NCBI RefSeq assembly: GCF_964204645.1 | Contig: NC_134026.1 | Coordinates: 24,260,650 to 24,324,649 of the forward strand | Origin: Tubulanus polymorphus | Taxonomy: Eukaryota > Nemertea > Palaeonemertea > Tubulaniformes > Tubulanidae | Length of the DNA stretch: 64,000 bases | Direction of reading: 5' to 3' | Shown here: positions 556 through 60,078 of the stretch, piece after piece | Position numbering within the stretch: position 1 is the first letter of the stretch | Layout of the letters: each line of letters begins with the position of its first letter | Position numbers and translations under genes: made by a program | Notes under the pieces: model-generated | The model's input: only the letters and a program-made list of their open reading frames with translations | Told to the model about the DNA's origin: nothing | Database searches by the model: none

Positions 556-657
556 TTTCTGAGCCAGAGGTGGAGGAGCAGCGGGCTGTGCGTTCTTGTC
601 CCTATCCCTCAATGAGAGAAGTAACTGTGCATGCGGCATAGAACTTGGTGGACCAGT
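556..657 (-). CDS. AUTS2: AUTS2-like exon 13 (34 codons)
   Basis: Phase 0/0. Acceptor ttcatttgtatggtttacag|ACT, donor AAA|GTTAGT (weaker than average). It encodes [20 protein letters not shown] and then [14 protein letters not shown]. The position after GAFQPK and the MPHAQLL...RDRDK pattern parallel vertebrate [24 protein letters not shown]. The next conserved block (KPGKWCAMHVHIAW in vertebrates) is not in this window. Confidence 0.75.

Positions 658-60078: not shown

Follow-up and report, generated by a model that had tools for sequence, protein, structure and literature searches.

The window, by which we mean the whole 64,000-nucleotide stretch of nemertean DNA that was analysed, holds the 5' part of a gene that is, as predicted from its DNA, a member of the AUTS2 family. 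The gene model lies on the minus strand (C2:24255695-24320727) and consists of 19 coding exons (4017 nt, 1338 aa) spread over 65,033 bases, counted from the start codon to the stop codon (Table 1). Exons E1-E12, derived from open frames and splice sites, make up the share inside the window and form an open frame of 2481 nt, encoding 827 aa. The gene continues leftward out of the window, and E13-E19 lie within 5 kb beyond its edge (C2:24255695-24259952, locus L003). The context of the ATG is fair, with G at both -3 and +4. No stop codon or frame break interrupts the 19 exons before the terminal TAG, and every junction follows the GT-AG rule.

The junction phases from E1 to E12 are 0,0,0,0,0,1,2,1,0,0,0, followed by 0 into E13. 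Non-zero phases occur at 6/7, 7/8 and 8/9 and again at 13/14 through 18/19. Introns 1-6 account for 49.5 of the 61.0 kb of total intron length; the largest is intron 5, with 26.7 kb between E5 and E6. A preliminary description of the same DNA had placed the gene at 556-60078 and had rebuilt it from 13 exons with a total of 2559 nt. Its right-hand end at 60078 is retained here as the start codon, twelve exons form an open frame of 2481 nt, and the 1-2-1 phase run that it reported at exons 6-9 is found in the rebuilt model. Its right-hand boundary thus stands, and seven further exons have to be added beyond the left edge; its thirteenth exon is probably the weak 78-nt candidate at 2297-2220, with which the twelve add up to exactly 2559 nt.

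Table 1. Exons of the predicted AUTS2-type gene. Positions are those of the window, or of contig C2 where so marked.
Feature	Position	Strand	Description
E1	59827..60078	-	start codon at 60078, basic tract, region 2
E2	55412..56278	-	289 codons, Ser/Thr/Asn-rich low complexity, phase 0-0
E3	44850..45065	-	His-rich, ends RVSE (region 3 begins)
E4	43575..43625	-	51-nt micro-exon, region 3
E5	39312..39341	-	30-nt micro-exon, region 3
E6	12527..12572	-	46-nt micro-exon, phase 0 to 1; region 3 ends, split-codon bloc begins
E7	8906..9137	-	serine-rich, phase 1 to 2
E8	7344..7630	-	Pro/His/Gln-rich with NMFAPP (region 4), phase 2 to 1
E9	4610..4833	-	region 5 and HX repeat (region 6), phase 1 to 0
E10	3147..3191	-	region 7
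Candidate cassette exon, 78 nt	2220..2297	-	positive coding score, weak splice sites
E11	1551..1679	-	region 7
E12	556..657	-	34 residues, place of human exons 12-13
E13	C2:24259763-24259952	-	outside window, region 8
E14	C2:24259580-24259654	-	outside window, region 9
E15	C2:24258578-24258643	-	outside window, region 9
E16	C2:24258153-24258206	-	outside window, region 9
E17	C2:24257026-24257251	-	outside window, region 10
E18	C2:24256908-24256943	-	outside window, 36 nt
E19	C2:24255695-24256583	-	outside window, region 11, ends TAG

The coding signal of each exon was compared with that of stop-free intron stretches of equal length (500 per exon, 477 for E8), leaving the exon's own codons out of the training. 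Ten of the 19 exons scored above all sampled stretches (E1, E3, E7, E8, E9, E11-E14 and E17), and for E2 and E19 200,000 draws from the introns yielded no stop-free stretch as long as the exon. Seven short exons fail to stand out clearly by coding score, being reached by 9 (E4), 21 (E5), 63 (E6), 76 (E10), 52 (E15), 43 (E16) and 2 (E18) of the 500 controls. Within exon 3, poly-histidine tracts were observed at 44906-44983, which appear on the plus strand as GAT and TGG triplet repeats.

The three micro-exons E4, E5 and E6 were first chosen by splice and coding score, using models trained on the other exons. Among the 493 phase-compatible chains of three candidates in the same intron interval, E4-E5-E6 ranks first by splice score. 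It also ranks first of the 493 by alignment to region 3 of human AUTS2, with a score of 51 that is shared by a variant lengthening E6, whereas the best of 117 chains in a plus-strand control scores 33. The joined residues align to human region 3 without a gap, and we take the human counterpart of the E5 residues to be DSDSDQEEK. The splice scores were trained on 15 introns, whose lowest values (8.4 for the acceptor and 5.6 for the donor) are favoured by their being in the training set; E5, which was left out of it, reaches 10.8 and 5.0. The phase-neutral 78-nt candidate has an acceptor score of 4.8 and a donor score of 3.4, weaker than all 15 training pairs and than the pair of E5, and is a possible cassette exon of the gene.

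The joined 1338 residues match the Pfam family Auts2 (PF15336) with an E-value of 1.7e-38 and 133.2 bits (cut-off 23), covering positions 1-216 of the 218 of the profile. This domain falls wholly outside the window. A profile search had been proposed as a check in the preliminary description; restricted to the 827 residues encoded in the window it returns no Pfam family at E up to 1, and it is the full-length protein that gives the match. Likewise, 793 of these 827 residues (all except exon 12) match no NCBIfam family. A PDB search with the joined conserved exons returned 14 matches at chance level (E 0.46-0.94), nearly all of them to ribosomal protein L12/uL11. The open frame of exon 1 matches the Pfam families BRCA2_TR2 and FAM176 below their cut-offs, and these matches were taken as chance.

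For comparison along the whole protein we used a working human AUTS2 reference sequence, checked against published landmarks. The whole chain aligns to it with a score of 677, while 200 shuffles reach at most 147 and the reversed chain 128. Taken one by one, E1, E9, E13 and E17 have scores reached by none of 1000 shuffles. They are followed by E10 (11), E11 (27), E7 (42), E15 (44), E8 (50), E3 (70) and E19 (74). The remaining exons, E2, E4, E5, E6, E12, E14, E16 and E18, show no significance alone against the working human sequence (1000 shuffles each; for example 237 for E2, 363 for E4, 442 for E5 and 686 for E6). E12 likewise has no significant match to human exons 12-13 (658 of 1000), although its 34 residues limit the power of this comparison. 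The best human match lies off the diagonal for seven of the 19 exons (E3, E4, E6, E7, E12, E14 and E16) and in order for the other 12.

Eleven regions, R1-R11, have been defined for the AUTS2 family (Sellers et al. 2020, Table 2, PMC7732068). When located by means of the working human sequence, ten of them, R2-R11, fall in the published order along the 1338-aa chain, starting at residues 46, 444, 627, 662, 691, 736, 828, 904, 963 and 1106, respectively. The scores of R2, R5, R6, R7, R8 and R10 are reached by none of 2000 shuffles; the weaker regions are R3 (9), R9 (42), R11 (89) and R4 (224). R1 was not recovered (1003 of 2000 shuffles), its non-significant best match lying in an RE repeat at residue 1012. 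A PPxY motif is found nowhere in the 1338 residues.

A genome-wide search with the Pfam Auts2 profile hit two places only, E13 and E17 of this gene, and exon 9 matches only itself in its own genome. One copy of the gene was thus found in the assembly (268 Mb, 77 contigs), and a further one could lie in masked or missing sequence. The genome contains 1634 overlapping matches to TTAGGG repeats and none to the reversed pattern, and a search of the assembly for COX1 gave no match. Among the best 12 of 39 homeodomain loci examined, ten form a Hox cluster of about 316 kb (C6:5318231-5634753), with all ten homeodomain exons on one strand. By their signatures we take these to be, in order, Post2, Lox2, Lox4, Antp, Lox5, Scr, Dfd, Hox3, Hox2 and Hox1, the assumed Lox5 including the NLAKLNGP tail; the cluster is compact and, so named, follows the canonical order of lophotrochozoans. 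This cluster points to a lophotrochozoan, non-vertebrate host. Together, the single copy and the lophotrochozoan host place the gene before the vertebrate split into AUTS2, FBRSL1 and FBRS.

We conclude that the locus almost certainly holds a single-copy lophotrochozoan AUTS2-ancestor gene (aAUTS2p). The preliminary description had reached the same identity, and the PF15336 match, the single copy found and the lophotrochozoan Hox signatures all agree with it. The six AUTS2 motifs that it named do lie on the minus strand, in the order it gave. Its list of old parts, those predating the split of the family, is right as far as it goes. It is incomplete, since region 3 and the exon-14 block are kept as well; region 11 is probably also among the old parts (89 of 2000 shuffles), and perhaps the very C-terminus.

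Much of the evolutionary frame has been known since 2020, namely the family itself, the ancestor genes of protostomes (molluscs among them), the regions in common and the dissimilarity at exons 12-13 (PMC7732068). As described there, protostomes and amphioxus have a single ancestor of AUTS2, in which 11 shared regions are recognised (Sellers 2020, PMC7732068). The nemertean gene resembles these aAUTS2p genes in that one copy was found, in carrying PF15336, in the order of R2-R11 and in its length. It also resembles them in lacking significant similarity to human exons 12-13, a part for which the published ancestors are described as showing no similarity (PMC7732068). It differs from them in having no PPxY, a motif reported for AUTS2 and for 18 of the 21 published aAUTS2p (PMC7732068), in its 289-codon low-complexity exon 2, and in that its exon phases are given. 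With FBRSL1 and FBRS it has the AUTS2 region in common, by published description, and FBRSL1 in addition has both of the exon blocs known from AUTS2 (PMC9008325).

Human AUTS2 is described as having 19 exons, split-codon blocs at exons 6-9 and 15-19, and introns that are long up to exon 7 and short afterwards (PMC9008325). A serine-rich repeat lies in its exon 7, and a PPPY motif and the HX repeat in exon 9 (PMC9454499). The nemertean gene likewise has 19 exons, a serine run in E7, the HX repeat in E9 and most of its intron length before exon 7. Regions R2-R11 are held by nemertean exons 1, 3-6, 8, 9, 9, 10-11, 13, 14-16, 17 and 19, compared with 1, 3-6, 8, 9, 9, 10-11, 14, 16-17, 18 and 19 in human according to the published assignment (PMC7732068), so that R2-R7 lie in exons of the same number. 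Both genes have codons split at 6/7, 7/8 and 8/9, the human side being taken from the description of the bloc rather than from phase values. Zero phase elsewhere (here at 1/2-5/6 and 9/10-12/13) also agrees, the human zero phases being implied by that description. The relevant parts of PMC8471078 and PMC8602103, and section 13 of PMC5555464, give no phase values.

Differences are also evident. One nemertean exon stands in place of human exons 12-13, and as a consequence R8 is found in E13 (human 14), R9 in E14-E16 (human 16-17) and R10 in E17 (human 18). E13 corresponds to the human exon-14 block, a 24-residue block known from fish (PMC5555464), with about 40 more residues and no break after the block. 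The nemertean gene has an additional exon 18 of 36 nt and six non-zero junctions at its 3' end, whereas human has four. Furthermore, its intron 3 measures only 1.2 kb, it has no PPPY, and unlike the human protein it has no C-terminal tract of eight histidines, but a His-rich exon 3.

Taken together, it is very probable that the exon architecture is conserved with human AUTS2, the split-codon junctions 6/7, 7/8 and 8/9 included. The matching exon numbers suggest that exons 1-11, with exon 2 matched by position only, owe their layout to bilaterian ancestry and not to a vertebrate invention. The stronger proposal is that the common ancestor of lophotrochozoans and vertebrates already possessed the human layout, with the region 3 micro-exons and the split-codon bloc 6-9, and that this layout persisted while most of the protein sequence changed and is itself under selection; in our estimate it has an even chance of being correct. 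The selected features would then be the long 5' introns, the in-frame skippable exons 2-5 and the unskippable exons 6-9. By the exon lengths of the nemertean gene, loss of a single exon among 2-5 would leave the reading frame intact and loss of a single exon among 6-9 would disrupt it; the human bloc 6-9 suggests that the same rule holds for these exons in human, and the bloc is thought to be resistant to alternative splicing. In the open-licence literature we found neither the split-codon bloc nor matching exon numbers described for any animal other than vertebrates, although the figures of Sellers 2020 may include exon diagrams for the ant gene.

Since the largest intron parts E5 from E6, an upstream low-complexity gene (E1-E6) and an AUTS2-domain gene (E7-E19) might have been misjoined around intron 5, and the low complexity of E2 and E3, neither with significant in-place human similarity, would fit such a reading. 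However, E1 itself carries region 2 (exon 1 0 of 1000 and region 2 0 of 2000 shuffles), and region 3, built from E3-E6, straddles the 26.7-kb intron (9 of 2000 shuffles; rank 1 of 493). E7 moreover requires an upstream exon ending in phase 1, which E6 supplies, and human AUTS2 introns are described as very long in the same part too (PMC9008325). Two misjoined genes are thus very improbable. The low-complexity stretches and the missing PPxY could also be read as marks of a pseudogene, a diverged or dying copy. With 4017 nt in 19 exons free of stops and frame breaks, GT-AG junctions throughout and no other copy found, this is scarcely credible.

The missing PPxY is shared with Tay bridge of Drosophila, and a derived form like that protein, instead of a less changed ancestor type, would account for it. 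Tay has the shared regions by published description, and the dipteran Tay form is described as about 1700-2500 aa long with regions 5-7 in one exon (PMC7732068). The nemertean protein of 1338 aa is close to the ant ancestor protein (1259 aa) and far from fly Tay (2486 aa), as published in PMC7732068. Its regions 5-7 are spread over exons 9, 10 and 11, three exons as in vertebrates, as opposed to the single exon described for Tay. Judged by published length and exon layout, a Tay-like derived form is therefore extremely unlikely, and the single exon for regions 5-7 makes the fly look like the derived case.

Vertebrate AUTS2 is reported to join the PCGF3/5-RING1B complex and to recruit P300, shifting the complex toward activation (PMC9008325, PMC7732068). 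Mutations in the HX repeat disrupt the contact between AUTS2 and P300, and much of the evidence for the mechanism in vertebrates comes from overexpression in HEK cells (PMC9008325). By analogy, the aAUTS2p gene would encode a mostly disordered nuclear adaptor that joins PRC1.3/1.5, a variant Polycomb complex with PCGF3/5 and RING1. The HX repeat of exon 9 would recruit the acetylase P300, through which the Polycomb complex would come to support gene activation, probably in developing nervous tissue. We consider this PRC1.3/1.5 adaptor mechanism rather likely for the nemertean protein. The best-kept parts belong to the nuclear part of the protein (the HX repeat with QDLLRQEL, the exon-14 block and one further motif), and together with PCGF3-like and RING1-like loci in the genome they make an adaptor role likely, as inferred from the vertebrate protein.

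The PCGF3-like locus, L005, is so called because its highest score is to human PCGF3 (655), followed by PCGF5 (494), PCGF1 (440) and BMI1 (345). A PDB search with L005 names PCGF1 first, PCGF5 being present in PDB only as its RING part. By eye, we take locus L006 to be BMI1-like and L007 and L008 to be RING1-like. The latter two (C4:24282612-24282752 and 24292084-24292224) are near-identical RING1-like RAWUL exons 9.5 kb apart, and the pair is either a recent duplication or an assembly artefact. As PPxY is absent, no link to WW domains through this motif is expected in the nemertean protein.

A different role, as a cytosolic scaffold in RAC1/EGFR signalling instead of a chromatin adaptor, is suggested by the cytosolic functions reported for AUTS2 and by the reported interaction of Tay with homologs of Erk and Mkp3 (PMC7732068). 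However, similarity to human AUTS2 is weak in the proline-rich region linked to RAC1 (E7 off the diagonal, E8 50 of 1000 and R4 224 of 2000 shuffles) and strong in exons 9, 13 and 17, which encode nuclear parts, and we regard the scaffold as unlikely. The explanation as a whole, that of an aAUTS2p gene with conserved layout and a putative nuclear-adaptor role, is in our judgement highly probable.

AUTS2 is a human neurodevelopmental disease gene. When variants in region 3, the HX repeat or the exon-14 block are to be assessed, the nemertean exons can be aligned as an outgroup, and an animal with a single copy offers a way to study the function of the gene prior to its duplication.

On the plus strand, a myosin gene begins at about 63099 (63099-64000, continuing in L004:1-5210) with a KE-rich start, a PDZ domain and motor exons. 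It lies head to head with the AUTS2-type gene, about 3 kb from exon 1, and a promoter region common to the two is possible. The joined myosin exons match the Pfam families PDZ (3.1e-8) and Myosin_head (5.1e-29); taken by itself, the stretch of this gene inside the window finds nothing in PDB at E up to 0.01, and its sole Pfam match stays below the cut-off. We take the gene to be of the MYO18A type. To the left of the AUTS2-type gene, L003 contains the beginning of a further reading frame on the minus strand, whose 42 residues have no Pfam match. Rfam and tRNA scans of the window gave no hits in either case.

Two mobile-element candidates were also observed. Intron 2 contains a 369-bp element (51555-51923) with 44-bp terminal inverted repeats that are 98% complementary. 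At least 39 other near-full copies occur in the genome at 96% identity, most of them about 9 bp shorter, this count coming from 40 of 363 candidates scored, the element at 51555-51923 included. It looks like a member of a young non-autonomous DNA transposon family. Downstream of the AUTS2-type gene, an imperfect inverted repeat of CTTGTTCCTTATT units, recognised by eye at L003:1880-2030, is probably a small transposon.
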